From a virus, in the IMG/VR virus record IMGVR_UViG_3300046001_007709, positions 1 through 20,298 of that record: DNA of 20,298 nucleotides. One strand, given 5' to 3'. The notes under the pieces are model-generated. The model was not told the DNA's origin. It saw only the letters and a program-made list of their open reading frames with translations, and did not search any database. Both the position numbers and the translations under genes were made by a program. Of the stretch, positions 2 through 18,911 are shown in pieces. How positions within the stretch are numbered: the first letter of the stretch is position 1; every line of letters starts with the position of its first letter.

Positions 2-691
2 GAAGAAGGAGCTGAAGAAATGGAAGCTCCTGAAGGCGAAGAAGAAATGGAATCTGAAGAAGAGGAAGTTGATCTTGAAGAACTTTTAGCTGAAATCGAA
101 GAAGGTGAAAGTGAAGAACTTGAAGAAGTTGAATCATTAAATGAATTTACTTTTGATATTTCTACAGCAGATGCTATTATATCTATGTTAGCACCAGTTG
201 GAGTAATTACAGGTGCTGCATTACTTAATTTCCGTAAAGAAATTAAAGATTGGTTTAAGAATAATGCTGGAAAAAAAATATCTGATGCTGAATTAACAAA
301 AATGATAAAAGCAAAAGAAGCAGAAGTAAAAACTGGAAAAATTGAAGAAAATACACAAATAGCAGAACTTAAATCTGAACTTAACGAAATCAATTTGTTA
401 AATGCAAAGTTACTTTACACTAACAAAATCTTCAGAAGTAAATCTTTAACTGAATCACAAAAAATTAAAGTTTTGACAGCGTTTGACAAAGCAAAGACTA
501 AAAAAGAAGCTCAACTAGTTTATGAGACATTATTAGAAAGTTTAAAAGTATCAAATGTTGGTGCTAAAACATCTATTAAAGAATCATTAGGTTCAGCGTC
601 AAAATCTTTAGGAAATGCTAAAGCTAAACCAATTATCGAAGTAGACAATCAATTTGCTAGATGGCAAACATTGGCTGGAATTAAAAAATAA
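2..691 (+). CDS. Prohead core scaffold protein, gp22-like (5' end cut by the window)
   Basis: The frame stays open to the left edge, so the Met at 20 may not be the true start. Numbered from that Met, residues 1-40 are almost entirely Glu/Asp-rich, as expected for a T4-type core protein. Residues 53-71 form a hydrophobic stretch, and residues 110-175 form a charged helical region containing LLNAKLLYTNK and a KIKVLTAFDKAKT-type segment. These segments and the RWQTLAGIKK C-terminus are what I recall of gp22-like scaffolds in T4-related phages. The position directly before the major capsid gene matches gene 22 in T4. The family builds the inner core on which the capsid shell assembles and is then degraded by the gp21 protease. 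Possible L-x-E or I-x-E cleavage sites are visible near residues 25 and 207. The hydrophobic stretch is unexpected for a soluble scaffold. Confidence 0.85.
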   Translation, partial: EEGAEEMEAPEGEEEMESEEEEVDLEELLAEIEEGESEELEEVESLNEFTFDISTADAIISMLAPVGVITGAALLNFRKEIKDWFKNNAGKKISDAELTKMIKAKEAEVKTGKIEENTQIAELKSELNEINLLNAKLLYTNKIFRSKSLTESQKIKVLTAFDKAKTKKEAQLVYETLLESLKVSNVGAKTSIKESLGSASKSLGNAKAKPIIEVDNQFARWQTLAGIKK

Positions 692-729: not shown

Positions 730-2439
730 ATGAGTTCAATTCAATCATTATTAGAATCCGCTAACCCGTGGAAGTCACTTCAAAGTGACGCTGGGAAATT
801 AGCGTCCAAGTGGGTAAAAACAGGCCTACTTGAAGGATTAGACGATACGTCTAAAAACAACATGTCTATCTTGTTAGAAAACCAAGCAAAACAATTAGTA
901 GTAGAGACTAGTGCAACTGGTACTGGTGCTACATTTACTACAGGTCAAGGTGAAAACTGGGCGGGTATTGCTTTGCCATTAGTACGTAAGGTATTTGGTG
1001 CAATCGCAGCTAAAGAATTCGTTAGTGTTCAACCAATGAATTTACCTTCTGGTCTTGTGTTTTTCTTAGACTTCCAATATGGAACTAACGTAAATCCATT
1101 CGCATCAGGTGACTCTCTTTACGGAACACGTAACGTAACTGGTCAATTTCCATACCAAACAACTGGTACAACTGGTGGTTTATATGGTGCTGGTCGTTTT
1201 GCTTATTCTACAAACCAATTTTCAGCTTCTGTTCAAATGACAGGTTCAAACAATGGTGGTACATTACCAACTGTTGCAGCTGGTACTGGTTCAGTAGTTT
1301 CAGCTTCTTGGTCAGATTTAAACTATGATTCTGCTCTTTCTGCCTCAGTAAAAGCTAATCAAGTTTACAAAATAACTGTGACTACAGCTTCTGTATTAAC
1401 TAATTTTGATCCAGATGGTGTTCGTGCATTTGTGTTAAGCGGAAGTGGTTTTACTGTTGCAAATAACTTACCAGCTTTCACTACTTACAATTACACTGCT
1501 GGTACTATCACTTTCTACGCAACTGGTTCAACTACTGCTTTCAGTGGTGCTCCTGCAGCGCCAGTAACTGTATTCTACAATAAAACTACTGCTGATAACT
1601 CTCGTGGTGATTTTGAAGATCCAACAGGTGCATCATTACCTACAACTTCAACTCCAAATGCCCAATCAGCGACTACAATTGGTATTCCAGAAATCAACAT
1701 CAAAATGCAATCTCAAGCTATCACAGCTAAGACTAAAAAGCTAAAAGCTGTTTGGACTCCTGAGTTTGCTCAAGATTTGAACGCTTACCAAAATATCGAT
1801 GCTGAAGCTGAATTGACTAACATCATGAGTGAATACATTTCAATGGAAATTGACTTGGAGATCTTAGACATGTTGATCGAAGATGCAGCTGCCGCAACTG
1901 AATATTGGTCAGTAGTTAACAACACTACATTGAATGCTGGTGGTACTGACTTTACACAAAGTTTAGGTTACTACAACACTCAAGGTGGTTGGTTCCAAAC
2001 TTTAGGTACTAAAATGCAAAAAGTAAGTAACAAAATTCACCAATTGACACTTCGTGGTGGTGCAAATTTCTTAGTATGTTCTCCAACAGTTGCTACTGTT
2101 TTAGAATCAATCCCAGGATTTGCTGCTAACACAAACGGAGATGCTGCTAACATGGAATATGCAATGGGCGTACAAAAAGTTGGTGCTATCAACAACCGTT
2201 ACACAGTGTACAAAAATCCATACATGACTGAAAACGTTATTTTGATGGGATTCAGAGGTAAACAATTCCTAGAAACAGGTGCTGTTTTCGCTCCATACAT
2301 TCCGTTGATCATGACTCCATTAGTTTACGATCCTAACACCTTCACTCCACGTAAAGGGTTAATGACTCGTTACGCTAAGAAGATGTTACGTCCTGAGTTT
2401 TATGGTAAGATCTACGTGAGTGGTTTAAACTCTTTGTAG
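730..2439 (+). CDS. 23: Major capsid protein (gp23)
   Basis: This 569-residue protein forms the hexameric shell of the head. The segment at about residues 77-115 (NWAGIALPLVRKVFG, then AAKEFVSVQPMNLPSGLVFF) is the hallmark of T4-type gp23. The C-terminal half carries the expected capsid-fold region, including the PYIPLIMTPLVYDPNTFTPR segment and the RPEFYGKIYVSGL ending. Residues about 140-320 are a Ser/Thr/Gly/Ala-rich insertion. T4 gp23 is matured by gp21 cleavage at L/I-x-E followed by A or G. The nearest candidate here is VVE59 before T60, which departs from that rule. The start at 730 is preceded by an A-rich leader and no Shine-Dalgarno, and lies 38 nt after the scaffold stop. No promoter motif was seen in that gap, so it is probably read through from upstream. 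A strong terminator follows. Confidence 0.97.
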   Translation: MSSIQSLLESANPWKSLQSDAGKLASKWVKTGLLEGLDDTSKNNMSILLENQAKQLVVETSATGTGATFTTGQGENWAGIALPLVRKVFGAIAAKEFVSVQPMNLPSGLVFFLDFQYGTNVNPFASGDSLYGTRNVTGQFPYQTTGTTGGLYGAGRFAYSTNQFSASVQMTGSNNGGTLPTVAAGTGSVVSASWSDLNYDSALSASVKANQVYKITVTTASVLTNFDPDGVRAFVLSGSGFTVANNLPAFTTYNYTAGTITFYATGSTTAFSGAPAAPVTVFYNKTTADNSRGDFEDPTGASLPTTSTPNAQSATTIGIPEINIKMQSQAITAKTKKLKAVWTPEFAQDLNAYQNIDAEAELTNIMSEYISMEIDLEILDMLIEDAAAATEYWSVVNNTTLNAGGTDFTQSLGYYNTQGGWFQTLGTKMQKVSNKIHQLTLRGGANFLVCSPTVATVLESIPGFAANTNGDAANMEYAMGVQKVGAINNRYTVYKNPYMTENVILMGFRGKQFLETGAVFAPYIPLIMTPLVYDPNTFTPRKGLMTRYAKKMLRPEFYGKIYVSGLNSL

Positions 2440-3624: not shown

Positions 3625-6600
3625 TGTCAGATTGTATAGGACCAATTAACATAATCCCTGACAACAATCAGGTTGTCTTATTAGACAACAACAAAAGTAT
3701 AACAGTAGTAGACAACAACTGCTGTACTGATGTTAATGTTACCCAACCAATAACCTCTGTAGTTCAAATCTTAACAGGACCTATAGGTCCAGTAGGTTCA
3801 TCAGGTTCAGCTGGTCCTTCTGGCTCAGCAGGTCCATCAGGATCAGTAGGTCCATCAGGATCATCAGCTCCATTTTCTTATGTAAGTGGAACAACATGGA
3901 ATACTACAAGCAGTATTGAAATCACAGGTTCATTAACAGTAAGTGGTTCTAACACTTTTAGAAACATAGGTCCTGCTCAATTTACAGGTTCAGTAGATGT
4001 GTTAGGAACATTAACTGTAACTAATGGTATAACAGGGTCTTTACTTGGAACCGCAAGTTATGCTTTACAAGCGTTGTCTTCAAGTTATAGTACCACAGCA
4101 TCTTATGCTGAAAATGCACAAACCGCATCCAATATATTAGGCGGTAAAGCAACACACGTACCGTTTTTTATAACCGATACTACTCTAGCTACTAGTTCAA
4201 TATATCAATCGGGATCAACTAGTATAATAATTAATCAAGACAATAATACAACAGCTAATCCTGAAGCATTGTATGTTTGGCAACCAAGTACATCATCATT
4301 TAACGTAATAAGTGGAAAAGGAAACTTAAACAACTACTTACAGTTAAACATACAAAATACAAATCAAGGAGTAACAGCATCATCAGACGTAGTAGCAACA
4401 GCCAATAATGGTAATGAAACTACCAACTATATTGACATGGGTATCAATAGTGAGAATTTCACAGGAGACATTGGTGGTCCAAATGCTGGTTATTTATACT
4501 CTACCGGTCAACATCTACACATAGGAAATGCTTCAAATTATCCAATTCAATTTTTCGCAGGTGGACTTAATTCAGACACTAATAGAAAACTACAGTTAAG
4601 TCCAAATAACTATCATGAAATGACTGGTTCATTGGATATTAGTGGTAGTTTAATAGTACAAGGAAGTATAACTAGTTCATTACAAGGAACAGCAAGCTAT
4701 GCTAACAATGCTTTAAGTTCATCTTATGCTTTAACCGCTTCATATGCTTCAAATGTTCCTGTTACTGCATCATACGCATTAAATGCAGCTAACGCTGTAA
4801 GTGCATCATATTCTTTAAATTCTGACAATGCTATTAATGCAAATAACGCAACAAGTGCATCATATGCCATTATTGCAGACAGTGCTTTAGCAGCCAATTA
4901 TGCAACAACTGCAGGAAATGGTGGGGTAACAAGTATCATTGCAGGATCAGGAGTAACATTAATACCACCAACAGGTATAGGAAATGTTACCATAGTGACT
5001 ACTGGAGGAGGAGGAACGACAATTATCTCAGGATCAAATATAACATCATCTTTTGTTAATTCAAATACATGGATATTTAATCATGGATTAGGAATCAGAA
5101 CACCAACTATAACAGTTTTTGATTCAAATTACAACCAAATAATTCCTCAGAATATAGAATTGGTAAGCACCTCAAGTGCTACTATAACATTCCCTACACT
5201 TGAAAGTGGATTTGCAGTAGCAATGGTGGGTGGAGTAGCAGGAAATGCTTACTCGGCATCATACTCACTATACTCAACTTATGCAGCAACAGCATCTTAT
5301 TTTGAAGAAACTGATCCAATATTTGTAGCAAAATCAGGATCATTTGCAACTACTGGTTCAAATAGGTTTATAGGAAACCAAACTATAACAGGCTCACTAA
5401 TAGTATCGAGTTCAAACTCAGTAACTGTTGTAGGTCCTATGACAATAACAGGATCATTTCTCGTAAGTGGTTCAACACTTCAAATTGGAAATAATACTCT
5501 AATAGGAAATACAGTTCTTAGCGGAAGCATCTCAGTAAGTGGATCACAAACTTTTAAAGGTAACCTGGATTTAACAGGATCTTTTACAATAACAGGATCA
5601 ACCGTACAAATTGGAAATAATACACTAACAGGAAATACTTCACTAACTGGTAGCATTGCCATGACAGGTAGCATTCTTATTTTTGGTGATGTTCTTCCAC
5701 AAATTTCTAGTTCTTATAACTTAGGATCAGAAACACAACCTTGGAAATCAATTTATGTACAATCAGGATCTATTAGCATACAATCAGATATTCCTGGCAA
5801 CCCACCTGCAACTATTTCAAACCAAACTGGCAATGTTACCATTACAGCAGCCGGTTTTCAAATAAAAAGCGGATCAACTTCTCCACTTGTAGTTGATACT
5901 ACAGGTAGAACACAAATAAAAGTACCTAATATACCTGCTAACGATGTTGGGGGATTCAGTGTAATAGGAAATCCAAATGGAGATTATCAACCGGTAATTA
6001 ATCCTAGTGGTATGGTACATATTACTGGTAATAATAATCAAGCTGCAAGGGTGACTGTAGATGGATTTGGATCTAATATAGGAGCTATTGTTGTAGGTAG
6101 ACACGCTAGAGGAACAGCAGCTTTACCAACACCAACACTATTAGGAGATGTATTAGTTAGATTCGCAGGACTAGGTTATGCGACAAGTAGCTACTTCCCG
6201 GTAGTAGGAGCTGTTCCAACATCTTTAGAATTTCAAGCTACAGAAAATTATTCAACATCTAGTTATGGTAGTAGAGCAGCTTTCTATAACTATGCTAATG
6301 GAGCTACTTCAAGAAGCCTATCAGCAACAATAGACTCAACCGGAATACAAACATCAGGATCTGTAGTAGCAAGTTCGTTTACAGGATCTTTATTTGGAAC
6401 TTCAAGTTGGGCTATAAGCTCATCAAACGCTCAAACAGCTTCATACGTTTTACAAGCAGTTAGTAGTTCATATGCAAGTACAGCTTCTTATGCACCAAAT
6501 TACCTTTTACTTAGTCAAACTGGTTCTTTTGCAACTACAGGTTCAAATATTTTTATTGGAAACCAAACAATTACTGGTTCATTAAGAATATCCGGATCAC

Positions 6601-7163
6601 TAACTGAAATAGGTAATACAACTATAACAGGATCATTACTAGTAACTGGAAGCGGTTTTATAAACTCAAAACCAATACTAACATCAGCAAATACCTCTTC
6701 TTTTGAAAATGGATTTGGATGGTATGGAGCTTTTTGCTCAACTGGATCTCAAACAAATCCTGTAGCAAACGTATCTCGTTCAATGCAATTCGATACAGTA
6801 GAGCATTCAAATGGAGTTAGTTTAGTCAGTGGAAGTAGGATTACAGTTACCAACGGAGGAGTTTACAATATACAATTCTCAGCAGAACTCCAAAATTCAG
6901 CACCTGGGGATCGTTTAGTAAATATCTGGTTTAAAAAGAATGGAACTAACGTTGCTCGCTCTAATGGAATAACTAATCTAGCTAAACAAGCTGGTAATAA
7001 AACAATAGCAGCTTGGAACTATGTAGACACAGCTAACAAAGGTGACTACTTTGAGATAGTATGGCAATCTGCAGACACAACAGCAGAGCTCCATGCAGAA
7101 GCAGCAACAGGTAATATACCATCAACACCATCAGTAATTATAACAGCAACACAAGTAGGATAA
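3624..7163 (+). CDS. Large modular tail fibre protein with collagen-like segment and jelly-roll-like C-terminus
   Basis: The product has 1179 residues. An N-terminal attachment region (1-51) leads into ten Gly-X-Y triplets (52-81). Three blocks of GSLxGTASYA / SSSYxxTASYA repeats follow, at about 138-169, 351-436 and 919-957. A beta-rich module at about 479-530 contains TWIFNHGLG and a VFDSNYNQIIP segment, a type common in phage fibres. ITGSLxVSGS-type beta-helical repeats occupy about 570-690, followed by SSSYNLGSETQPWKSIYV near 694-712, another widespread fibre signature. Residues about 1020-1179 look like a C1q/TNF-type jelly-roll (GVYNIQFSAEL, WFKKNGT, AWNYV, GDYFEIVW), a likely receptor-binding tip. 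It probably forms a trimeric host-recognition fibre. Adjacent genes share its modules. Confidence 0.88.
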   Translation: MSDCIGPINIIPDNNQVVLLDNNKSITVVDNNCCTDVNVTQPITSVVQILTGPIGPVGSSGSAGPSGSAGPSGSVGPSGSSAPFSYVSGTTWNTTSSIEITGSLTVSGSNTFRNIGPAQFTGSVDVLGTLTVTNGITGSLLGTASYALQALSSSYSTTASYAENAQTASNILGGKATHVPFFITDTTLATSSIYQSGSTSIIINQDNNTTANPEALYVWQPSTSSFNVISGKGNLNNYLQLNIQNTNQGVTASSDVVATANNGNETTNYIDMGINSENFTGDIGGPNAGYLYSTGQHLHIGNASNYPIQFFAGGLNSDTNRKLQLSPNNYHEMTGSLDISGSLIVQGSITSSLQGTASYANNALSSSYALTASYASNVPVTASYALNAANAVSASYSLNSDNAINANNATSASYAIIADSALAANYATTAGNGGVTSIIAGSGVTLIPPTGIGNVTIVTTGGGGTTIISGSNITSSFVNSNTWIFNHGLGIRTPTITVFDSNYNQIIPQNIELVSTSSATITFPTLESGFAVAMVGGVAGNAYSASYSLYSTYAATASYFEETDPIFVAKSGSFATTGSNRFIGNQTITGSLIVSSSNSVTVVGPMTITGSFLVSGSTLQIGNNTLIGNTVLSGSISVSGSQTFKGNLDLTGSFTITGSTVQIGNNTLTGNTSLTGSIAMTGSILIFGDVLPQISSSYNLGSETQPWKSIYVQSGSISIQSDIPGNPPATISNQTGNVTITAAGFQIKSGSTSPLVVDTTGRTQIKVPNIPANDVGGFSVIGNPNGDYQPVINPSGMVHITGNNNQAARVTVDGFGSNIGAIVVGRHARGTAALPTPTLLGDVLVRFAGLGYATSSYFPVVGAVPTSLEFQATENYSTSSYGSRAAFYNYANGATSRSLSATIDSTGIQTSGSVVASSFTGSLFGTSSWAISSSNAQTASYVLQAVSSSYASTASYAPNYLLLSQTGSFATTGSNIFIGNQTITGSLRISGSLTEIGNTTITGSLLVTGSGFINSKPILTSANTSSFENGFGWYGAFCSTGSQTNPVANVSRSMQFDTVEHSNGVSLVSGSRITVTNGGVYNIQFSAELQNSAPGDRLVNIWFKKNGTNVARSNGITNLAKQAGNKTIAAWNYVDTANKGDYFEIVWQSADTTAELHAEAATGNIPSTPSVIITATQVG
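3777..3866 (+). repeat. Collagen-like Gly-X-Y repeat within the fibre gene
   Basis: Ten consecutive codon triplets encode G-P/S-X (GPI, GPV, GSS, GSA, GPS, GSA, GPS, GSV, GPS, GSS). Collagen-like stretches in phage fibres form a short triple helix that registers the trimer. Most Gly codons are GGT or GGA in near-identical nine-base units, so this segment could expand or shrink by slippage. Confidence 0.85.
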
Positions 7164-7164
7164 G

Positions 7165-7860
7165 ATGAAAATATTTCAACCCATAGTAACAGGATCACTT
7201 AACGTATCAGGATCAGTAACAGCAGACTCATTTACAGGGTCACTGCAAGGTACTGCTTCATATGCTGTGACTGCATCATATGCTATGAATGGTGGAGGTG
7301 GTGGAGCAGGCTTTCCATTTACTGGAAGTGCTGTAATAACTGGAAGTTTAATTGTAACAGGTTCAACTACATCAACATTAGGATTTACAGGTTCATTATT
7401 TGGAACTTCTAGTTGGTCATCAAACTCTATAAGTGCCTCTTACGCGACAACAGCATCTTTTTTATTAGGAGGAGTTGTTAGTGCAAGTTACGCAGCAACA
7501 TCATCACATGCCACTAATTTTGTAATAGTAAGTACTTTAGCATTAAATGGAACACTAACAGATTCTGCTACTGTAAATTCAACAATAGTAGGCACAAATA
7601 ATTTATTTACTCAAGCAACAGGTTCACGAACATCAGCTTTTGGAAAGTATACTTTATACAATGGAGCAAATGCAAGAGCAGGAGAATTTTACACAGTGTG
7701 GAATGGTACAACTACTACATACACTGACGTTTCAACAACAGACATAGGAAGTACTTCACCTATTGTGTTTAGTTCAACAGTAGTAGGAAGCAACATACAA
7801 ATAGACGCAGTAGCTGGAACATCTGGCTGGACAATTAAAATGTTAACAACCTTTATCTAA
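7165..7860 (+). CDS. Short tail-fibre-like protein sharing modules with the large fibre
   Basis: This 231-residue protein begins with a TGSLNVSGSV beta-repeat (residues 9-18). It continues with GSLQGTASYAVTASYA (26-40), a Gly-rich hinge (43-48), ITGSLIVTGS (58-67), TGSLFGTSSW (75-84) and ASYATTASF (91-99). These are the same modules as in the 3624-7163 fibre. The C-terminal 110 residues have a different sequence (GTLTDSATVNSTIVGTN, then GSRTSAFGKYTLYNGA) and probably form a distinct tip domain. The start lies one base after the preceding stop, so the two genes are co-transcribed. It may be an alternative or accessory fibre, or a distal subunit binding to the larger one. I do not recognise a specific gene. 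Confidence 0.78.
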   Translation: MKIFQPIVTGSLNVSGSVTADSFTGSLQGTASYAVTASYAMNGGGGGAGFPFTGSAVITGSLIVTGSTTSTLGFTGSLFGTSSWSSNSISASYATTASFLLGGVVSASYAATSSHATNFVIVSTLALNGTLTDSATVNSTIVGTNNLFTQATGSRTSAFGKYTLYNGANARAGEFYTVWNGTTTTYTDVSTTDIGSTSPIVFSSTVVGSNIQIDAVAGTSGWTIKMLTTFI

Positions 7861-7862
7861 GC

Positions 7863-7876
7863 ATATTTATAATAAA
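7863..7876 (+). promoter_or_regulatory. Candidate late promoter motif before the second fibre operon
   Basis: ATATTTATAATAAA has one substitution (C to T) relative to the repeated 14-mer. It starts 2 nt after the stop at 7860 and ends 29 nt before ATG 7906. It could drive the closely spaced genes from 7906 to 12644. Confidence 0.58.
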
Positions 7877-7905
7877 GTTAGTTGGATAGGGAAAACTAAG
7901 AAAAA

Positions 7906-8502
7906 ATGAACGAATTTATAGCTCGTAATGGGCTCATCGCACAAAACAATTCTACAATATCAGGTTCACTAAATGTAACCGGTGGAATCACAGGATCTTT
8001 ACTAGGAACAGCTACAACAGCTAGTTACGTTACATTAGCACAGACCGCTTCATATGTTACTCTAGCTCAAACTGCTAGTTATGTTTTACAAGCAGTAAGT
8101 TCTTCATACGCCGTGACTGCTAGTTATGCTTTGAATGGTGGAGGTATTCAAAGTAAATCAGCTACTTTTGATGGCCAGGGTGGTGTAATAAACATTAATA
8201 CAAAAGCTACTTTTAATATAGATTTTACAGGTACAGTTACTGGGTGGCAGTTATTTGAAATAAGTGATACACCTATATCTTCAACATGTGTAATAGATGT
8301 GTGGAAAGACACATATGTAAATTATCCTCCTACAGTAGCAGATACAATATTTGGAACTAAACCATCATTAACTGCTGAAATTAAAAATGAATCAACTGGA
8401 TTATCAATAGCAGTAACCACAGGAGATATATTTATAGTAAACATAGACTCTAACACTAACGCTGTAAAGCTTTTACTGGTTTTACAATTTAACATAACAT
8501 AA
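7906..8502 (+). CDS. Short tail-fibre-like protein
   Basis: The 198-residue product has the N-terminal pattern FIARNGLIAQNNSTISGSLNVTGGITGSLLGT (approximately residues 4-35). A direct duplication YVTLAQTAS-YVTLAQTAS follows (41-58), then VLQAVSSSYAVTASYALNGGG (60-80). All of this repeats the modules of the two upstream fibre genes. Residues 81-198 form a separate beta-rich C-terminal domain with the motif ISDTPISSTCVIDVWKDTY, followed by YPPTVADTI. I recognise this as a recurring tip module of environmental phage fibres, of unknown ligand. It starts a new transcription unit after a promoter-like motif and an A-rich leader. Confidence 0.78.
   Translation: MNEFIARNGLIAQNNSTISGSLNVTGGITGSLLGTATTASYVTLAQTASYVTLAQTASYVLQAVSSSYAVTASYALNGGGIQSKSATFDGQGGVININTKATFNIDFTGTVTGWQLFEISDTPISSTCVIDVWKDTYVNYPPTVADTIFGTKPSLTAEIKNESTGLSIAVTTGDIFIVNIDSNTNAVKLLLVLQFNIT
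8026..8079 (+). repeat. In-frame tandem duplication of a nine-residue fibre unit
   Basis: Two adjacent 27-nt units encode the identical nonapeptide YVTLAQTAS but differ at synonymous positions (for example GCACAGACCGCT against GCTCAAACTGCT). The protein repeat is preserved while the DNA has diverged, which implies an old duplication under selection. Confidence 0.8.
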
Positions 8503-8503
8503 C

Positions 8504-8713
8504 ATGGAATATACAATTTTAAGTAGAGAAACAAGAGTATCTACAACCGTAACTACTTTAGTAGAATATGTCTTAGAAGGTCAGACTAAGCAAGTATATG
8601 TAGCTCATTTTGAACCAAAATCAGAAGAAGATATTATACAGGGTATTGTTAATAGAGGTATAACAGAGGAAAAATACTTAACTACAGAAGAATATTTAAC
8701 TACAGAAGAGTAA
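8504..8713 (+). CDS. Small acidic protein of unknown function
   Basis: The 69-residue product starts one base after the fibre stop codon and ends one base before the next gene. The tight spacing and a plausible start support it as a real gene of the operon. The N-terminal half (TILSRETRVSTTVTTLVEYVLEGQ, approximately residues 4-27) looks like beta-strands. The C-terminal half is acidic and ends in a duplicated hexapeptide, YLTTEE-YLTTEE. There is no signal peptide, membrane segment or known motif. Small proteins in this position between fibre genes could be assembly chaperones or minor virion proteins, but that is inference from position only. Confidence 0.62.
   Translation: MEYTILSRETRVSTTVTTLVEYVLEGQTKQVYVAHFEPKSEEDIIQGIVNRGITEEKYLTTEEYLTTEE
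8675..8710 (+). repeat. Tandem 18-nt repeat at the end of the small acidic gene
   Basis: Two adjacent 18-nt units encode YLTTEE. They differ at only three third-codon positions (TAC CTT-type against TAT TTA and GAA against GAG), consistent with a fairly recent in-frame duplication. Confidence 0.75.
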
Positions 8714-8714
8714 A

Positions 8715-10307
8715 ATGGCTATTATAACAATAAGCAACACAGGAGGAATCTGGACCTCTACAACAGCTTGGGTTGGTGGTGTTGTACCTACTGCAGTTGA
8801 TGATGTAGTAGCAACAGCTACCTCTGGTCCATTAACTATAACTAGTAGTGCATCAGTTGCTAAAAGTGTAAACTTTACAAATTATGTAAACACTCTTACT
8901 ATAAATGCTGGATTAAGCATAGCAGGTAACTTAACACTTTCTGCTGGAATGACTATTACTGGTACAGTGGGTTCTTTAGCTTTTAATGCTAATGCTACAT
9001 GGACATCAAATGGTAAAACATGGACTGGTAACTACTTAGTCAATACAGCAACACTAACTATAACTTTAGCAGATAATGCTATAATAGGTGGTACTACAAA
9101 CCATTCTGGTGTTGGTGGTGTACATACTATTAATGGATTTACTCTTAGCTTTAATGGTAGTGTTACAGCATCCAGCGGAAGGGTATTTGCTGGAACAACA
9201 ACATATAGGTTTACTACAGCTACAACACAAACTATAATTGCTACATTTCGATCTGACATTGTTATAATAGCAACAGGGACAGTTACCCTAACCAATCTTA
9301 TATTTTCACCAGCTACTAATAAAACAATAACTTATACTTCTGGTATAATACCTCCCGGAACAGGTGCCTTAGCTTTATCTCCAACTGGTGCTTTAAGTGT
9401 GACTTTAAATACCTCTGGTATGTCATGGAATACTATTTTTAATTCAGGTAATAGCTCAATTGTACTTCTATCTGATCTTAATGTTAGTGGAACCACTACC
9501 TTAAATAATAACCCGACATTGGTAGGGGCCTTTCCACTTAATACATTCAACCTAATTATCGCTTCATCAGGTGGTGTTCTTACATTGAATAACGATATAA
9601 ATGTTACAGGAACTTTAAGTTCTGGAGTAGCAACGAATATTACATTTAATGGAGCTTATAATATAAATGCTTTAAACTCAGTAACTGTAGGAACAAATTG
9701 GTTAGGTACAGCTGTTCTTCTATATACTGGAACTGGAACATTTACAGGAGCTACTGCTGCAAGTGTTTTACAACTTAACACTTTTATAAATACAACAGGT
9801 GCTACATTTGGTTCTTTTACATACAGAACAAAAACATTAACTTGGACAGCAATTGGTACATCAACGCTTGGTACTATGGTATTATTATTAAATAATGCTC
9901 CAACCATGACAGTTAATTGTACTGGGTTAGTTATTCCAACATTGTCAATGAATCTTACAAGCACAAATACAACAATTAATGGTTCTCAAGGATTTGCAAT
10001 AAACAATTATTTATGTATATCAGCTTCTACAAAAGTAACTTGGCAAGCAACTAATACTTATGTAATCAATAATTCTTTTATAGTTACAACAACATCTGCA
10101 GCTTCACATGTATGGGTATCATCATCTCCAGGAACACAGTATAAAGTAAATTTAACAAATGGAGCAAGTCAAGATGTAGGTTTTATAACTGTTACTGATG
10201 CTGATTCAAGTGGTGGAACAACAATATATACAAGAAAAGGAACATTAAGCAATACTTCAAATTGGAGATTATTAGTGGCTCCATTAACAATAGGAGTAGC
10301 ATCATAA
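8715..10307 (+). CDS. Beta-repeat adhesin-like structural protein
   Basis: This 530-residue protein is dominated by Thr, Ser, Asn, Gly and Val in alternating patterns typical of beta-solenoids. The N-terminus has W13, W19, then GGVVPTAVDDVV, similar to a 'W..W.gg.vP...DdV.i' motif that I associate with phage adhesins and Bacteroidetes surface proteins. LTLSAGMTITGT and TWTSNGKTW follow at about residues 75-110. The C-terminus carries VTDADSSGGTTIYTRKGTLSN and NW. The next gene shares all three features, so the two are paralogues. There is no signal peptide, as expected for a virion protein. It probably binds host surface polysaccharide or forms a rigid appendage. No lyase or hydrolase catalytic motif was recognised. 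Confidence 0.72.
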   Translation: MAIITISNTGGIWTSTTAWVGGVVPTAVDDVVATATSGPLTITSSASVAKSVNFTNYVNTLTINAGLSIAGNLTLSAGMTITGTVGSLAFNANATWTSNGKTWTGNYLVNTATLTITLADNAIIGGTTNHSGVGGVHTINGFTLSFNGSVTASSGRVFAGTTTYRFTTATTQTIIATFRSDIVIIATGTVTLTNLIFSPATNKTITYTSGIIPPGTGALALSPTGALSVTLNTSGMSWNTIFNSGNSSIVLLSDLNVSGTTTLNNNPTLVGAFPLNTFNLIIASSGGVLTLNNDINVTGTLSSGVATNITFNGAYNINALNSVTVGTNWLGTAVLLYTGTGTFTGATAASVLQLNTFINTTGATFGSFTYRTKTLTWTAIGTSTLGTMVLLLNNAPTMTVNCTGLVIPTLSMNLTSTNTTINGSQGFAINNYLCISASTKVTWQATNTYVINNSFIVTTTSAASHVWVSSSPGTQYKVNLTNGASQDVGFITVTDADSSGGTTIYTRKGTLSNTSNWRLLVAPLTIGVAS

Positions 10308-10310
10308 ACA

Positions 10311-12644
10311 ATGGCAGCAAATATATTTACAGGGGCAACAGATAATAATTGGGGAACAGCAACAAACTGGTCACAAGGAACTGTTCCTACAACTACTGAC
10401 ACATATATAACCACCTTTGATGCTACAAGTCCTAGTTGTACTGTAAACACAACAGCTAGAGGATGTAATGGAATTGATTTCTCAGCATATGTTAACACTA
10501 TAACAATGACAAATATTATTAATGTATATGGTGATTGTACATTGGGTGCTGGTATGACAATTGTAGGAACTGGCGATATATCAAGTGATGGTACTGCTGT
10601 AACATATACATGGACAAGTAATGGCAAAACATGGCCAAATAACGTAACCTTACACACAGGCCCAACAGCATGGATATTTGCAGATGACTGGACAATTAGT
10701 GGAGATTTAATAACAGCAACAATCGTAATAAATAGCAGTACATTATATATTGGTGGTAATTTTGTATGCGGTGCTAATACAGGTGGAACAACTGCAATAG
10801 TTTTGAATGGTACAGGAACTTGGACTGGTGGAACATGTAGAAATGACTTAACCATAAATACCGCAGGAACAATAACAATAAGTGGAACTGTTGGATACAA
10901 CACAGGAACCTTAACATATACTGCCGGTATAGTAGACACAACTGGTTCAACATTATTTTTAACTAACGTAGGTACTCCAACACTTGCAACAAATGGGATA
11001 TCTTGGAATAACATTACAATGAATACTGGAACAACTGTAACATTAACAAATGCATTAGATGTTAATGGAACATTTACATATGGCTCAGGAAGTTCCTCTG
11101 TGACATTAAATGGTAGCACTGCAACCTTCTCAGGAAATATAAAAGCTTCAGGAACAACTGATTCTGGTTCTACATTATTAGGTACAACAAACATAACGAT
11201 TGATGGTACTGGAACTTGGTCACATTCATCATTATTTAATGCAATAATAACAAATAATTTAACCATAAATACAGCTGGAACACTTACAATAGGTTCTAAA
11301 ATAGGATACAACACTGGAACATTAACATATACTGCAGGTACAGTAGTCACATCAGGTAGTACGTTGTCAATAAGTGCTTCAACAACCCTAGACACAGATA
11401 GAGGAGCAACTAAAATAACGTGGAATAATGTTACTCTTGGTGGAACATTAACATTAACATTGACAACTGCCTTAAACATTAGTGGTACATTTATACCTTG
11501 CACGGGGGGTGTTACAGTTACAATTAACACAAGCACTGTTAACATAGGTGGAAATTTATCAGTACAAGGAAGTGGAGGAATAGTAACAGGAACCTCTCTA
11601 TTTAATATAAATGGAACTGGAACTTGGAGTCACACATCTTCAACTGCTCTTAGAAATAATGTGAATATTGACACTGTTGGAACATTGACTATAAGTGGAA
11701 CAGTAAATTATAACACAGGTACTTTAACTTACACAGCAGGAACTATTACAACCACAGGTTCAACATTAACCATAATTTTATCCACAACATTAAACACAAG
11801 TGGAATGACATGGAATAACATTTCCATATCAGGAGCCTCTCAGACTTACACATTAATCAGTAATTTAAACTGTAATGGAACATTTAATAGTAGTGTAACA
11901 GGTATAGGATTGATAAATGGATTATATAATATAAATTGTTCGGGTTCATTAATAATTGGAGCATCTGGATTAGGAGCAGGAACTGCAACTTTTGTTATGA
12001 CTGGAACTGGAACAATGACATGTGCTACAGGAGCTTTACGAAACAATCTCACAATAAACACAGCAGGTACAATAACATTCCAATCTGGATTTAACTTTGT
12101 TTATAGCACAGGAACGTTAACATACACAGCCGGTACAATAGTCACATCAGGTAATACATTGTTAATAAATGCTTCAACAACCTTAGACACAAGTGGTATA
12201 AATTGGTATAATGTAACAATATCAACAGTGTCTCAAACTGTTACAATAAACTCTTTATTGAATATAACCAATACACTTACAACATCTGTTTCATCAGTTA
12301 TATTTGCAGGAACAAGTGGTTGGACCACTTTAAATTTCTCATCTATAACAGCAGGGGTAACACATACTTTAGCATCTACCAAAACATACACAATAACAGG
12401 ATTGTTTACTATCACAGGAACATCTGCATCAAGAATAGTTTTTGTATCAAGTATACCAGGTAGTCAAGCAATACTCACCCTTGCTAATAATGGTACATCC
12501 TCACAAAATATAGACTTCTGTAATGCTACTGATATTGACAGTTCAGCAGGTTTAACAATTTGGTCATATAAAGGAGTGCTATCAAATGTAACTAATTGGG
12601 CAGTAATGCCTACACAACGTGATACTGTTAGTTATGCGGCTTAA
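10311..12644 (+). CDS. Long beta-repeat adhesin-like protein with four tandem repeats
   Basis: This 777-residue protein is paralogous to the preceding one. It shares an N-terminal W14, W20, then GTVPTTTD; a YVNTIT and LGAGMTIVGT region; TWTSNGKTW near residues 102-110; and a C-terminal DSSAGLTIWSYKGVLSN followed by NW. Between these ends it carries four copies of a roughly 130-residue unit beginning NNLTINTAGT and containing YNTGTLTYTAGT, a layout typical of a long beta-solenoid rod. It starts 3 nt after the stop of its paralogue and is the last gene of this unit. A host-surface binding role is inferred. The composition (Thr, Ser, Asn and Gly, few charged residues) resembles bacterial adhesins, but no anchor or secretion signal is present. 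Confidence 0.72.
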   Translation: MAANIFTGATDNNWGTATNWSQGTVPTTTDTYITTFDATSPSCTVNTTARGCNGIDFSAYVNTITMTNIINVYGDCTLGAGMTIVGTGDISSDGTAVTYTWTSNGKTWPNNVTLHTGPTAWIFADDWTISGDLITATIVINSSTLYIGGNFVCGANTGGTTAIVLNGTGTWTGGTCRNDLTINTAGTITISGTVGYNTGTLTYTAGIVDTTGSTLFLTNVGTPTLATNGISWNNITMNTGTTVTLTNALDVNGTFTYGSGSSSVTLNGSTATFSGNIKASGTTDSGSTLLGTTNITIDGTGTWSHSSLFNAIITNNLTINTAGTLTIGSKIGYNTGTLTYTAGTVVTSGSTLSISASTTLDTDRGATKITWNNVTLGGTLTLTLTTALNISGTFIPCTGGVTVTINTSTVNIGGNLSVQGSGGIVTGTSLFNINGTGTWSHTSSTALRNNVNIDTVGTLTISGTVNYNTGTLTYTAGTITTTGSTLTIILSTTLNTSGMTWNNISISGASQTYTLISNLNCNGTFNSSVTGIGLINGLYNINCSGSLIIGASGLGAGTATFVMTGTGTMTCATGALRNNLTINTAGTITFQSGFNFVYSTGTLTYTAGTIVTSGNTLLINASTTLDTSGINWYNVTISTVSQTVTINSLLNITNTLTTSVSSVIFAGTSGWTTLNFSSITAGVTHTLASTKTYTITGLFTITGTSASRIVFVSSIPGSQAILTLANNGTSSQNIDFCNATDIDSSAGLTIWSYKGVLSNVTNWAVMPTQRDTVSYAA
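10842..12230 (+). repeat. Four tandem ~130-residue repeats inside the long adhesin gene
   Basis: Repeat units begin at 10842, 11253, 11655 and 12042 (spacings 411, 402 and 387 nt). Each encodes N-N/D-L/V-x-I followed by x-T-x-G-T-x-T, then YxTGTLTYTAG and TxG-S/N-T-L, and ends in a T-W/I-x-N/Y-N segment. All spacings are multiples of three, so copy number could change without breaking the frame. The last boundary is approximate. Confidence 0.85.
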
Positions 12645-12721: not shown

Positions 12722-13855
12722 ATGAACATTCCTATATACCCAGGCTCTAGCTCATTCTTTCCAGGAGACACTCCATTTGGATTTTATGACAATGACTATC
12801 AATTTCAAATTGACGCAGACAAAGTAACTACTTTTTGTGCTAGACGTTTAGGATATCCAATTATGGAAGTTGAGTTGCAAGACTTAAACTTCTACACTGC
12901 TTTTGAAGAAGCAGTTACAACATATGGAAACGAATTGTACGCTTACAACTTAAGAGACAACATGTTGAATGTAGCTGGAGCATCAACTGCTTCAAACATG
13001 AATCATGCTACAATGACTCCTACTTTAGCAAACATAATTAGAATTTCTCAACAGTATGCTGTAGAATCAGGAACAGGAGGAAATGTAAACTACTACAGTG
13101 GATCATTTCACACAACAGCATCTATTCAAGACTATGATTTTAATGCTTGGGCAGTAGAAAACAATGTAACAGGTGGAATGGAAATCAAAAGAATATTTTG
13201 GCAACCACCTCCAGCAGTAAATCAAGTGTACAACTTAGGAGTATTTTCAGGTTTAGGAGGAGTTCCAGCAGTTGGAGCTTATGGTTTATTTGGTTCAACA
13301 GGATTTTTAATGTATCCAACAAGTCTTTTACTTCAATCTGCTCAAGCAGTTGAAATGCAAAATGAAATTTCACTAGCAGGATATACCTTTGAACTCATAA
13401 ACAACAAGTTAAGAATATTTCCAATTCCTCCACGTGATGGAGATTACATATGGTTTCAATATCTTAACATTGAAGAAAGAGCAAACAGTGTAATATCTCA
13501 AACACCAGGAGTAGTAACTAATGTTTCAAACGCTGGATATTCTAATCCTACTTACACACAAATAAATTCTATAGGCAGACAATGGATTTTTGAGTTTACT
13601 TTAGCATTATGTAAAGAAATGTTAGGATATGTTAGAGGAAAGTACACTCAAGTGCCAATTCCTGGTAAAGAAATTACTCTAAATCAATCAGACTTAATTT
13701 CTGCTGCGACAGCAGAAAAAACAGCATTAGTAGAAAGACTAAGAGTATATTTAGACGAAACAAGTAGACAAGCTTTACTAGCAAGAAGACAAGCAGAAAG
13801 TGACTCAGCAATGAATGAGTTAGGAAAATCACCAATGACAATTTTTATAGGATAA
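12722..13855 (+). CDS. 13: Neck protein, gp13-like
   Basis: The 377-residue product opens with FGFYDNDYQFQIDADKV (residues 19-35), followed by RRLGYPIMEVELQDLNFYTAFEEAV (41-65). That is the pattern of an N-terminal region with a helix beginning 'ELTxxxIYxAFEEAxxEYG' that I recall in gp13-like neck proteins of T4-related phages. A long variable middle contains GlyAla-rich loops (about 170-200). A late segment FQYLNIEERAN and a C-terminal helix rich in Arg and Glu near 335-365 complete it. The family closes the filled head and prepares it for tail joining. The assignment is supported by the next two genes, which match gp14 and gp15 in the T4 order 13-14-15. It is longer than T4 gp13 (about 309 residues). 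Confidence 0.75.
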   Translation: MNIPIYPGSSSFFPGDTPFGFYDNDYQFQIDADKVTTFCARRLGYPIMEVELQDLNFYTAFEEAVTTYGNELYAYNLRDNMLNVAGASTASNMNHATMTPTLANIIRISQQYAVESGTGGNVNYYSGSFHTTASIQDYDFNAWAVENNVTGGMEIKRIFWQPPPAVNQVYNLGVFSGLGGVPAVGAYGLFGSTGFLMYPTSLLLQSAQAVEMQNEISLAGYTFELINNKLRIFPIPPRDGDYIWFQYLNIEERANSVISQTPGVVTNVSNAGYSNPTYTQINSIGRQWIFEFTLALCKEMLGYVRGKYTQVPIPGKEITLNQSDLISAATAEKTALVERLRVYLDETSRQALLARRQAESDSAMNELGKSPMTIFIG

Positions 13856-13856
13856 G

Positions 13857-14366
13857 ATGGCATTATTTGGTTCAGCAAGAGACGTTTCATTCATAAGAAA
13901 AATGAACAGAGAGTTAATGGGAGACATTATCACCCAACAATGTGCTTTCTACAAGTATAAGTTGAAGGATACACCAACCAACATATATGGAGAAGCCTCA
14001 ACAGGAAGAACATTTGATGGCCCAGTCTTACTAAACGCTCTTATTACAGTTGGAGACAACACAAGTCCTACAAGTGACTTAGGCGTAAACTTTGACTGGC
14101 CAATGTCATTTGCTTTCTTAAGAGACGATTTAGTTGATGCAAACGTGCATCCCGAAGTAGGAGATGTTATATTATATCAAGAAAGTTATTGGGAAGTAGA
14201 CAACACAAATCAAACTCAATTTTTTGTAGGTAAAGATCCTGATTATCCTTACAACATCAATCCTTTAAATCCAGGATTAGACCAGTTTGGATACAATGTT
14301 AATGTAACATGTGAATGTCACTATGTTCCTGCTGATAGATTAAACATAATTAAAGCTAGATTGTAA
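13857..14366 (+). CDS. 14: Neck protein, gp14-like
   Basis: This 169-residue protein contains DITTQQ-type and YKYKLKDTPTNIYGEA segments near residues 23-47. It then has FLRDDLVDANVHPEVGDVILYQESYWEVDN (about 87-116), a 'L..dLvd..v.P..GDviyy....fEI' pattern characteristic of gp14-like head completion proteins. It ends with CECHYVPADRLNI. It is much shorter than T4 gp14 (about 256 residues), as in distant T4 relatives. The gene starts one base after the gp13-like stop and overlaps the following start by one base (TAATG), so the neck genes are translated together. It would join the head portal end to the tail. Confidence 0.8.
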   Translation: MALFGSARDVSFIRKMNRELMGDIITQQCAFYKYKLKDTPTNIYGEASTGRTFDGPVLLNALITVGDNTSPTSDLGVNFDWPMSFAFLRDDLVDANVHPEVGDVILYQESYWEVDNTNQTQFFVGKDPDYPYNINPLNPGLDQFGYNVNVTCECHYVPADRLNIIKARL

Positions 14367-15491: not shown

Positions 15492-17111
15492 ATGATAAAA
15501 TTAATTAATTTATTAAAAGAAACAATATCTGAGAGTTTCAATTTACATGATTTAAATGATGATGAACAAATTAATATTTATCAATTATATAAAAACTCAT
15601 ATGAAAAATCTGTAGGCAGCGCTTGGGATGAAGATAAATTTTTTGAAAGAGCAGAAGATTGGGAATTTTTTGGAGATAAAGAAGGATATGTAGCTGCTAG
15701 ATTACAAAATAGTGGAATGTATAAATTGGCAGTTGTTGGAGGAAATATTAGGGGAATATTAAAAGGAATGCAAGAATTGTCTTCTTTAAATAAACCGACT
15801 TGGGGAATGGTTTCAAAAGACTTATTACCTATGGTACAAAGGTTAGATTTTAAAACACCTAACGCTGTAACAATGAATCTTCTTCTTAGACTTATACCTA
15901 AAGAAGTATTTGGAGGAGTTGATTTCAAAATAAATTTAGACGGCAGCATTACTCTAAAATACTCAGACACTGGAGATGCTAAAAAATATTTTGTAGGAAA
16001 TAAACAATATTTTGATTTCTTAAAAAATCAAATTAAAGATAAAGTAAATCCTAAAAAATTAGTTAATATATTAAAAGAATCAAAACAAGTAGGAGATTTA
16101 TATCATTTTACTCCTCTTAGCAATATTGCTAACATACTTAAATCTCAATATTTGATATCAAATGATGAACAGGCAATTTCTACATCTATAAGACCAAATA
16201 TGGCTACTAAGGATTTTCAAGATATGAAATCAACTCCTATAGCTAGAATAATGTTAGACGGAGACAAAATCAGTACTAGATATAAAATACGTTCGTTTGC
16301 ATATGGCTCAGAATACAGTGAAATTGGACGTGGAGAAGATTTAGGTGAAGAGGCGATATTAACTAATGGAAGAAATTTTTATTTTATACCTTATCTTAAA
16401 CGAATAGATATATTTACAAATAAGAAGTCTCAAATAGATTTAAGTAAAATAACCCAAATATTAGATAAAATGAATATACCTTATAAAATATATGAAGGTA
16501 CTCCAAAATCTAACATACCATACACTCAACCTAAAGATGGAAATCCATTAGATGTAAAGTATAAACCTAATCCAAAAGAAATAGCAGTTTCTGATTTAAC
16601 AGGTGAACATCCTTATCCTAATTTTAAAAGTTTTGAATTTACAAATGATCCAAAAATATATCCATTATTAAAGGATCCTGAAGGTTTAAAAAGTATACCT
16701 CAAAATTTAATACGACCATCATCTATATTTAAAACACAATGGGACACAACTCCACTATTTCCAGAACATTATGTATCTGTAGATTCATCAAATGATGCAA
16801 AATATGATTTAAAAAATTCAAAAAAACAATCTGAAAAAACAGGAGATAAAGGAATGGAATTGTATTTGTTTGGAAGAGATTATTCAAATGACATTACTCA
16901 AAAATTACTTAAAAGTATTGAATTTAAAACTTGGGATCAATTAAAAATGTCTAAAGACATAGAAAATATTAAAAAAGAATGGGATAAATATGGTTGGTAT
17001 TATAGTTACAACGGACTTATGCTTTTTCCAAAAAAAATAGCAGATATGTATCTTATTCCACGTCAAGTAAAACCAGCAGAAAATAAACAATTTATTATTC
17101 CTAAAAAATAA
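15492..17111 (+). CDS. GNAT-like / ADP-ribosyltransferase-like fusion protein, probable internal virion protein
   Basis: This is a 539-residue, multi-domain protein. Residues 1-15 (MIKLINLLKETISES) resemble T4 capsid-targeting peptides such as that of Alt (MELITELFDE) and contain candidate gp21-type sites at LKE10 and ISE14. Residues 20-180 (FFGDKEGYVAARLQNSG, WGMVSKDLLPMVQRLDF, KKYFVGNKQYF) look like a GNAT-fold domain found in many environmental phage proteins. Residues 200-310 resemble an ADP-ribosyltransferase: LYHFT with H205, AISTS near 229-232, MLDGDKISTRYKI near 254-266 and GEEA with E286/E287, in the order of an H-S-E ART triad. Residues 370-539 are unrecognised. There is no signal peptide or membrane segment. 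Its codons favour AAT, GAT and ATA more than the neck genes do. The T4 Alt analogy is inference; enzymatic activity is unproven. Confidence 0.65.
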   Translation: MIKLINLLKETISESFNLHDLNDDEQINIYQLYKNSYEKSVGSAWDEDKFFERAEDWEFFGDKEGYVAARLQNSGMYKLAVVGGNIRGILKGMQELSSLNKPTWGMVSKDLLPMVQRLDFKTPNAVTMNLLLRLIPKEVFGGVDFKINLDGSITLKYSDTGDAKKYFVGNKQYFDFLKNQIKDKVNPKKLVNILKESKQVGDLYHFTPLSNIANILKSQYLISNDEQAISTSIRPNMATKDFQDMKSTPIARIMLDGDKISTRYKIRSFAYGSEYSEIGRGEDLGEEAILTNGRNFYFIPYLKRIDIFTNKKSQIDLSKITQILDKMNIPYKIYEGTPKSNIPYTQPKDGNPLDVKYKPNPKEIAVSDLTGEHPYPNFKSFEFTNDPKIYPLLKDPEGLKSIPQNLIRPSSIFKTQWDTTPLFPEHYVSVDSSNDAKYDLKNSKKQSEKTGDKGMELYLFGRDYSNDITQKLLKSIEFKTWDQLKMSKDIENIKKEWDKYGWYYSYNGLMLFPKKIADMYLIPRQVKPAENKQFIIPKK

Positions 17112-17171: not shown

Positions 17172-18911
17172 ATGGCAGAAACATTAATATCACCTGGCGT
17201 TCTAGCAAGAGAAAATGACTCCTCTTTTGTATCAAAAAGACCAGTTATCGTAGGAGCAGCAATTATCGGACCAACAGTTAAAGGCCCAGTTGAAGCACCT
17301 GTGGTATGTACTACTTACAGTCAATTTACAACATTATTTGGCACAACTTTTGTAAGTGGAAGTGCGACTGATAGTCAAACTTATTCTTACTTTACTTCAA
17401 TTGCAGCATACAACTACTTTATCAATGGTGGAACATCATTGTTAGTAGCTAGAGTAGTAAGCAGCTCAGCTGATTATACTAATGCTACAAGTTCATTAAT
17501 TCCAACAGGATCAGGTGGTCCAACATCAGGTGGTCCTTCACCATTTATTTTATCTACTCTTTCAAAAGGTGCTATTATGAATAGTACTTCCACAGAAACT
17601 ACTAACAATGCTTTACCAAGTGGCTCATCAGATAATGTAAGATGGCAAATTGTGAATGCAAACTCAGGATCTGGAACATTTGATTTATTGGTTAGAAGAG
17701 GAGATGATACTTCACTTACTCCTACAGTATTAGAAACATGGACTGGTTTATCATTAGATCCATTGTCTGGAAACTATATTGCTCGTGTAATTGGTGATCA
17801 GGTTGAAAATTTTAACTTTGCCAATACCCAAATGGAAATTAGTGGTTCATATGCTAATAGATCAAATTATATTTTTGTAAAACAAGTAAATTTTACTACT
17901 CCTAATTATTTTGATAACAATGGGGTTGCAAAAAATATATATACTGGTTCATTACCTATAGTTTCATCTGGTTCATTTGGTGGAGCATCAGGTACTATCA
18001 AAGGTGGAGCTTTATTTTATGATAAAATTAATGCATCTTCAAACTCACAAGGTTTAGTAGGAGGAAATTATACTAATATGATTGCTCTTTTATCAAATAA
18101 AGATGATTACCAATTTAATATATTATTAACTCCAGGTTTATATGATGCTGCTGCTAATACTTCACAAATATCTTCAATTATAGCAAATACTCAAAATAGA
18201 GGAGATAACATTTTTATATTAGATCCAGTAGCTTATAACTCAACTGTATCAACAGTTGTATCTGCAGCGGCAACAAGAAATACTTCATATGCTGCAGAAT
18301 ATTGGCCATGGTGTCAAATTGTAGATCCAGGAACAGGAAACTTAGCTTGGGTACCAGCATCAACAGTAATTGCAGGTGTTTACGCTTACAACGATTCAGT
18401 ATCTGAACCTTGGTTTGCACCAGCAGGTATAAACAGAGGTGGATTGTCTCAAGTAGTTAGAGTAGAACAAAAATTGTCTCAAGCAAGCAGAGATACTCTA
18501 TACACAGGAAAAGTAAATCCAATTGCTACATTCCCTGGAACAGGTGTTGTAGTGTACGGTCAGAAAACATTACAAACTAGAGCTAGTGCTTTAGACAGAG
18601 TAAATGTTAGAAGATTGTTGATTGCTTTAAAATCATACATTTCTCAAGTAGCAAATAACTTAGTGTTTGAACAAAATACAATTGCAACAAGAAATCAATT
18701 TTTAAGTCAAGTAAATCCATATTTAACAAGTGTTCAACAAAGACAAGGATTGTATGCTTACAAAGTGATAATGGATGATTCAAACAACACTCCTGATGTA
18801 ATTGATAGAAATGAGTTAGTAGGTCAAATTTATTTACAACCAACTAAAACAGCAGAATTCATTTACTTAGACTTCAACGTTACACCAACTGGAGCAACAT
18901 TCCCAGCATAA
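17172..18911 (+). CDS. 18: Tail sheath protein (gp18)
   Basis: The 579-residue product begins with LISPGVLARENDSSFV, followed by GAAIIGPTVKGPVEAP (about 28-43), the standard N-terminus of T4-type contractile sheaths. The C-terminal region has RVNVRRLLIALKSYISQ, then VFEQNT, the YLTSVQQRQGLYAY segment and FIYLDFNVTPTGATFPA at the end, all diagnostic of the conserved inner sheath domain that polymerises around the tube. The middle (about 110-300) is the variable outer domain with Ser/Gly-rich loops (GSGGPTSGGPSPF). It is somewhat shorter than T4 gp18 (659). It has its own candidate promoter and a strong terminator, so it is probably transcribed alone at high level. Confidence 0.97.
   Translation: MAETLISPGVLARENDSSFVSKRPVIVGAAIIGPTVKGPVEAPVVCTTYSQFTTLFGTTFVSGSATDSQTYSYFTSIAAYNYFINGGTSLLVARVVSSSADYTNATSSLIPTGSGGPTSGGPSPFILSTLSKGAIMNSTSTETTNNALPSGSSDNVRWQIVNANSGSGTFDLLVRRGDDTSLTPTVLETWTGLSLDPLSGNYIARVIGDQVENFNFANTQMEISGSYANRSNYIFVKQVNFTTPNYFDNNGVAKNIYTGSLPIVSSGSFGGASGTIKGGALFYDKINASSNSQGLVGGNYTNMIALLSNKDDYQFNILLTPGLYDAAANTSQISSIIANTQNRGDNIFILDPVAYNSTVSTVVSAAATRNTSYAAEYWPWCQIVDPGTGNLAWVPASTVIAGVYAYNDSVSEPWFAPAGINRGGLSQVVRVEQKLSQASRDTLYTGKVNPIATFPGTGVVVYGQKTLQTRASALDRVNVRRLLIALKSYISQVANNLVFEQNTIATRNQFLSQVNPYLTSVQQRQGLYAYKVIMDDSNNTPDVIDRNELVGQIYLQPTKTAEFIYLDFNVTPTGATFPA

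Follow-up and report, generated by a model that had tools for sequence, protein, structure and literature searches.

Between the neck and tail sheath genes of a T4-like phage fragment lies an ORF whose product is predicted to join a GNAT fold to an ADP-ribosyltransferase (ART) fold. The locus raises the question of where and when such a protein acts, and whether it works as one enzyme or as two.

Gene context and predicted folds

By gene content, the window (the whole stretch of DNA analysed, 20,298 nucleotides) is a 20.3-kb fragment of a T4-like phage, with genes in the order scaffold (C-terminal part), gp23-type capsid protein, PhoH, repetitive fibre-like proteins, neck genes, the ORF, tail sheath and tube (Table 1). 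The scaffold gene probably starts before the contig. Among cultured phages, Flavobacterium phage immuto_2-6A has the most similar capsid protein (57.7% identity), and the host is therefore probably a member of the Bacteroidota, as judged from sequence. Long repetitive ORFs rich in S, T and G occupy 3624-12644, between PhoH and the neck genes; FTGSLQGTASYA repeats come first and threonine-rich proteins follow, and the products are probably fibres or decoration proteins. The ORF can be taken as a real gene because its frame is preserved from end to end in relatives from metagenomic phages (49-55% identity); a copy of the 539-aa protein that is 100% identical is present in a second metagenome (L002). 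When L002:104-676 is compared with window positions 13857-14366, this near-identical phage is seen to carry a GIY-YIG-like ORF (YIYYLCKDDGVPLYIGKTKNS) just ahead of the neck gene at 14366; this ORF is probably an inserted homing endonuclease gene. An earlier note on this DNA had placed the gene in a late structural operon, which is correct for the window (neck to sheath) and not general, since in contig L012 the same GNAT-ART fusion adjoins QueC/QueE/FolE-like genes (nucleotide-modification genes). A structural neck protein was considered and rejected, given the location of the L012 fusion elsewhere and the lack of a recognisable copy in immuto.

Table 1. Coordinates of the ORF, its parts and the neighbouring genes in the window
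Feature	Position	Strand	Detail
ORF	15492..17111	+	539 aa: leader, GNAT fold, internal leader, ART fold, C-terminal domain
N-terminal leader, residues 1-14, MIKLINLLKE TISE	15492..15533	+	candidate cuts after E10 or E14
GNAT-fold domain, residues 20-185	15549..16046	+	AlphaFold model m34603b551a43, PDB fold matches
Internal leader PKKLVNILKE, residues 187-196	16050..16079	+	directly N-terminal of the ART module
ART-fold domain, residues 197-345	16080..16526	+	AlphaFold model md86717d1e2a7, PDB fold matches
H205, candidate NAD-binding histidine, strand 1	16104..16106	+	24/24 sequences
S230-T231-S232, strand 2	16179..16187	+	S230 in 23/24
E286-E287, candidate catalytic glutamates	16347..16352	+	each 24/24 sequences
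C-terminal domain, residues 346-539	16527..17108	+	in a subset of relatives, e.g. L008, L009, L012, L020
Head scaffold gene (C-terminal part)	20..691	+	65% identity/112 aa to the protein before the capsid gene in L065
Major capsid protein, gp23 family	730..2439	+	PF07068 E 9.7e-75; 67% identity to L065
Neck head-tail adaptor gene	12722..13855	+	phrog_211 E 7.7e-12
Tail sheath gene, immediately 3' of the ORF	17172..18911	+	PF04984, phrog_23

Profile searches with the protein and its alignments (Pfam, PHROGs, NCBIfam, PDB sequences) gave no significant family, and the domain assignments therefore rest on folds. A tblastn search of 72,556 plasmids gave no match. Among phage records, the whole protein matched a single 735-kb phage (two records) by its GNAT part only, the ART part gave chance-level matches only, and none was found with the C-terminal part. 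The ART alignment found nothing in 84,980 bacterial and archaeal species genomes in a scan limited by its peptide patterns, and ART and GNAT were unmatched in immuto in searches run without a positive control.

The GNAT-like region proposed in the earlier note is borne out by an AlphaFold model of residues 1-188 built from 9 sequences (pLDDT 84; residues 2-12 below 50). All 50 of the PDB matches listed for it are GNATs (best E 6.5e-4, probability 1.00), and in this model residues 20-185 have the GNAT fold. The motif A loop Q/R-x-x-G-x-G/A is absent; the loop is VVGGNIRGILKG in the window and GTAGSNKSKYK in relatives. Because the canonical loop is absent, acyltransferase activity and CoA binding are uncertain.

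The second model, of residues 192-539, was built from 24 sequences (pLDDT 75; ART core mostly above 75). Its best PDB fold matches belong to the ART superfamily (yeast Tpt1, DarT1, Mycobacterium tuberculosis DarT, KptA), with Foldseek probability up to 1.00, E 1.9e-3 and TM 0.72 by target length; the E value is perhaps no better because the C-terminal domain was part of the query. CC0527, which we take to be ART-like, is also among the best matches. Tpt1 removes 2'-phosphates from RNA and DarT modifies DNA. The motifs LYHFT (H205), ISTS (S230) and EEAI (E286/E287) fall on modelled strands 202-208, 228-232 and 286-290, which is the usual ART arrangement on strands 1, 2 and 5. The ART-like assignment of the earlier note thus stands, and of the residues that it named H205, E286 and E287 are invariant in homologues (S230 in 23/24), with the limit that the 24 sequences are mutually homologous and 24/24 does not amount to 24 independent observations. 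The protein resembles Tpt1/KptA and DarT in its invariant strand 1 histidine and in glutamates on a later strand, and differs from them in having no significant sequence-profile match: the DarT profile (PF14487) scored 13.0 bits (0.085) against the C-terminal part of the window protein, below the 22.5 cut-off, and Tox-ART-HYD1 (Pfam) matched one relative weakly (0.0065). The last active-site position is E, vs D in the Tox-ART-HYD2 clade, and the first is an invariant H instead of the R of R-S-E ARTs (T4 Alt/VIP2). According to the model, residues 197-345 have an ART fold and are predicted to form an enzyme of the H...E Tpt1/DarT-like kind. The C-terminal domain is missing from ART proteins of roughly 150 aa, and its viral fold matches are nearly all uncharacterised proteins. 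An Alt homologue was rejected, as the active-site residues differ; the comparison with Alt drawn earlier holds for an analogue and fails for a relative (PMC5512222).

Leaders at the start and inside the protein

The ORF does begin with MIKLINLLKE, as previously read. Compared with the T4 IPII/IPIII start, MKTYQEFIAE↓A (arrows mark known or candidate cuts), it shares hydrophobic residues at positions 4, 7 and 8 and E10, and it ends in L/I-x-E as a T4-type leader does. According to PMC9026906, the first ten residues of T4 IPIII are enough for import; of these, 4 and 7 play a part in targeting and 8 and 10 in cutting. Of the two candidate cuts, E10 has the T4-like spacing and E14 is the site common to relatives, with ISE↓S at the GNAT N-terminus in the window, IYE↓S in L003, LYE↓T in L012, LYE↓V in L013, FLE↓N in L051 and FLE↓S in L055; the starts of L003, L012 and L013 are only 7 residues long (MKKYIYE).

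The leader is common to otherwise unrelated proteins, and the capsid-targeting-like start claimed earlier is now recognised as a T4 IPIII-type leader. When 11 related contigs or genomes were counted with ART and capsid proteins excluded, the pattern was found on 29 unrelated ORFs vs 4.4 by shuffling (maximum 12 in 2000 runs); a Zeta_toxin-family kinase is among them, and MIKLKDLLLE↓APAK and MIKLKDILSE↓AKTK are further examples of the pattern in related phages. With another residue in place of E there were 0-11 matches, and with E there were 30. G007, G008, G017 and G018 have a strong excess; the cultured immuto has one too, and among those counted G002, G005 and G011 have none. G017 has a cluster of MGKFKEYL.E proteins, its ART among them, and the window capsid protein itself starts MSSIQSLLE↓S. 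Peptidase_S77, the T4 gp21-type prohead protease, was found in 10/23 contigs, which are mostly fragments; the window contig ends short of the protease gene. Immuto has a prohead protease and several leader-bearing proteins, for example with MIKLIDLLTE↓SLFP, MRLLELLRE↓AKEA and MKKVMGNLADLLLE↓ESDF. In G003, whose capsid and scaffold proteins share 67% and 65% identity with those of the window, the protease (1676-2284), a leader protein, a solo ART gene (3990-4877), the scaffold (5057) and the capsid gene (6121) are consecutive.

Two further observations concern leaders. A Zeta_toxin-family kinase (L079:7921-8760, E 1.6e-12) starts with a head leader, MISLRSMLLE↓V, and may be injected cargo. Another type of leader, (E)F.RMQKLAGI(I/L).E, stands at the start of unrelated ORFs in L065 (3478-3981), L009 (460-933 and 5596-5901), L106 (6675-7139) and L108 (20061-20456). 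It resembles the scaffold C-terminus, ARWQTLAGIKK in the window (20-691) and SRWQKLAGIIK in immuto, so that cargo may imitate a scaffold motif for head entry.

A second copy of the leader, at residues 187-196, had escaped the earlier reading; it carries a candidate prohead protease site, ILKE196↓SKQ. ART proteins that stand alone open with MIKLTDLLKEITE↓AKQVGDLYHFT (L009), MKLLSILKNIILE↓AKQAGDLYHFT (L008) and MIKLKDILLE↓AKQVGNLYHFT (L029), and the same leader is found in the interior of fusions, NPKKLVNILKE↓SKQVGDLYHFT in the window and NPMKFMNLLKEILLE↓AKQVGNLYHFT in L012. The L012 internal leader has a methionine at the would-be old start, and its MKFMNLLKEILLE↓AKQ can be aligned with the L008 start MKLLSILKNIILE↓AKQ. 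Across the 24 sequences the site is L/I-x-E↓A/G/S, with E at P1 in 24/24, L or I at P3 in 23/24, A, G or S at P1' in 22/24, and P2 free (N, L, T, K, I, E or D). Read from the alignment, this conservation has the pattern of a putative protease site rather than that of a helix. Residues 192-196, the first five modelled, have pLDDT below 50 and are predicted to be disordered. ART fusions with three other partners retain the site, and a 1148-aa protein of L044 has eight [LI]NE vs 1.3 expected (p 5e-5), mostly between recognisable parts. Over all ORFs, internal leader motifs show a modest excess (15 vs 5.9), several of them plainly chance, and this excess is not counted as proof. A head-core-like protein encoded beside a prohead protease (L072:8141-9325, minus strand) has an internal leader-like KMKLVDLLKE↓G. 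The earlier note had described one enzyme with two possible activities; the conserved candidate site between the domains suggests two products, and the protein is therefore probably cut in two.

The modules also occur apart and in other combinations. The GNAT module stands alone in L007, L051 and L055 and is fused to ART in the window, L003, L012 and L013. In the 735-kb phage and a relative (L006:3686-5902, L004:3309-5522) it forms the C-terminal end of a 737-738-aa protein, the middle of which (GVYSYPAIDFL...IDAFVDHGDGFIHTNEPHQALLLAP) looks by eye like an ART-type region. The ART module stands alone in many phages, and is fused to a metallopeptidase-like region in L042 and to a kinase-like protein in L035 (by eye, without a family match). 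The 1148-aa L044 protein contains ART, a part that is clearly a 5'-deoxyribonucleotidase, and regions with weak resemblance to a CTP-transferase and a metallopeptidase; in immuto, the 5'-nucleotidase that matches the L044 part is encoded separately and bears a leader of its own (MKKVMGNLADLLLE↓E). In L024, a diverged second ART-like ORF (4101-4364) adjoins a leader-bearing ART gene and has its own leader (MIKLTDLLFE↓GINDNYLYHDTSLENLLGIIK).

Proposed route into the host and its alternatives

We propose, with moderate confidence, that the protein is fused head cargo of a T4-like (gp23) phage, which is packed, cut by the prohead protease into two enzymes, and injected. The MIKLINLLKE leader would carry the precursor into the prohead core, where the gp21-type protease would cut after L/I-x-E twice, once near the N-terminus (E10 or E14) and once in the internal leader (E196). 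Cutting would release two separate enzymes, an acyltransferase of the GNAT fold and a Tpt1/DarT-like ADP-ribosyltransferase that depends on NAD. DNA packaging would come after cleavage; both enzymes would then enter the new cell together with the DNA and modify molecules of the host at an early stage of infection. Nucleic acids can be substrates of Tpt1/DarT-like ARTs, and proteins of other ARTs. We infer packaging, cleavage, injection, catalysis and target from computed features, namely the folds, the ART residues, the site, the spread of the leader and the protease.

The leader and the evidence for packaging also fit a protein that is packaged and injected uncut, as a single bifunctional polyvalent effector in which the internal leader is a relic of gene fusion. 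We consider this unlikely, as a relic should drift, yet P1 and P3 are fixed while P2 varies, in a segment that is modelled as disordered. A protein that is not packaged at all, made late and, as T4 ModA/ModB do, modifying proteins of host or phage while still inside the producing cell, would suit the L012 fusion among nucleotide-modification genes; it is improbable in view of the leader with its L/I-x-E site, common to unrelated proteins, and of the G003 ART gene inside a run of head genes. Slightly less probable still is that the conserved L/I-x-E before ART belongs structurally to the ART fold and that the N-terminal helix common to these proteins has nothing to do with targeting. The ART rows are all homologous and the conservation of E196 could be structural, but the segment is predicted to be disordered, the same ten residues ending in E are found on unrelated proteins, and the second ART-like ORF of L024 (MIKLTDLLFE↓G...LYHDT) has this leader followed by another spacer.

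The earlier statement that no described system with this domain order was known was too strong. The pair is not new, because earlier work has predicted both packaged ARTs in myoviruses and polyvalent proteins that combine GNAT with ART (PMC5512222, PMC9503650, PMC7824862), and the two domains were reported as neighbours in a predicted injected phage protein in 2017 (PMC5512222). As in polyvalent proteins, unrelated enzyme domains, GNAT and ART among them, lie in one protein, here encoded between neck and sheath genes, and the further partners include metallopeptidase and nucleotide enzymes. The polyvalent ARTs are of the Tox-ART-HYD2 (H-Y-D) type and the GNATs are RimI-like (PMC5512222), whereas the window ART looks Tpt1/DarT-like, with H...E. 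Iyer et al. (2017) compared polyvalent proteins with viral polyproteins and proposed embedded peptidases as the cutters (PMC5512222); no embedded peptidase was recognised in the window protein, the modules of which are divided by a leader that contains a candidate prohead protease site. As is proposed for the protein described here, T4 IPII/IPIII have a short N-terminal leader removed by gp21 after L/I-x-E, and T4 Alt is an ART injected with the DNA, with R-S-E residues. The available part of PMC9026906 describes N-terminal propeptides in T4 and also, for Alt and gp21, propeptides at the C-terminus, and mentions no cut between two enzymes. The prohead protease of phage SPN3US, gp245 (A-x-E), offers a parallel to the proposed cleavage in that it cuts head and ejection proteins after x-x-E, some propeptides several times; these cuts remove propeptides, and no separation of two enzyme domains is reported in the available part of that source (PMC10052503). 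A literature search, mainly of open-access journal articles, came upon no account of internal leaders that are kept and then cut by a prohead protease. What is new here is the retention of the internal leader rather than the GNAT-ART domain pair.

It is an even question whether T4-like Bacteroidota phages more generally fuse neighbouring leader-bearing genes into cargo polyproteins, with internal leaders serving as protease sites and enzymes delivered in a fixed ratio per import. If so, the protein described here would consist of GNAT and ART units and the 1148-aa L044 protein of several modules. By a sequence rule (a leader with L/I-x-E, at the start or inside), the injected cargo of aquatic phages might be recognisable from DNA alone, and the rule would reach kinases, nucleotidases and proteins without a known family in a large and poorly known phage group. 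Polyvalent effector proteins would thereby be linked to T4-type head maturation.
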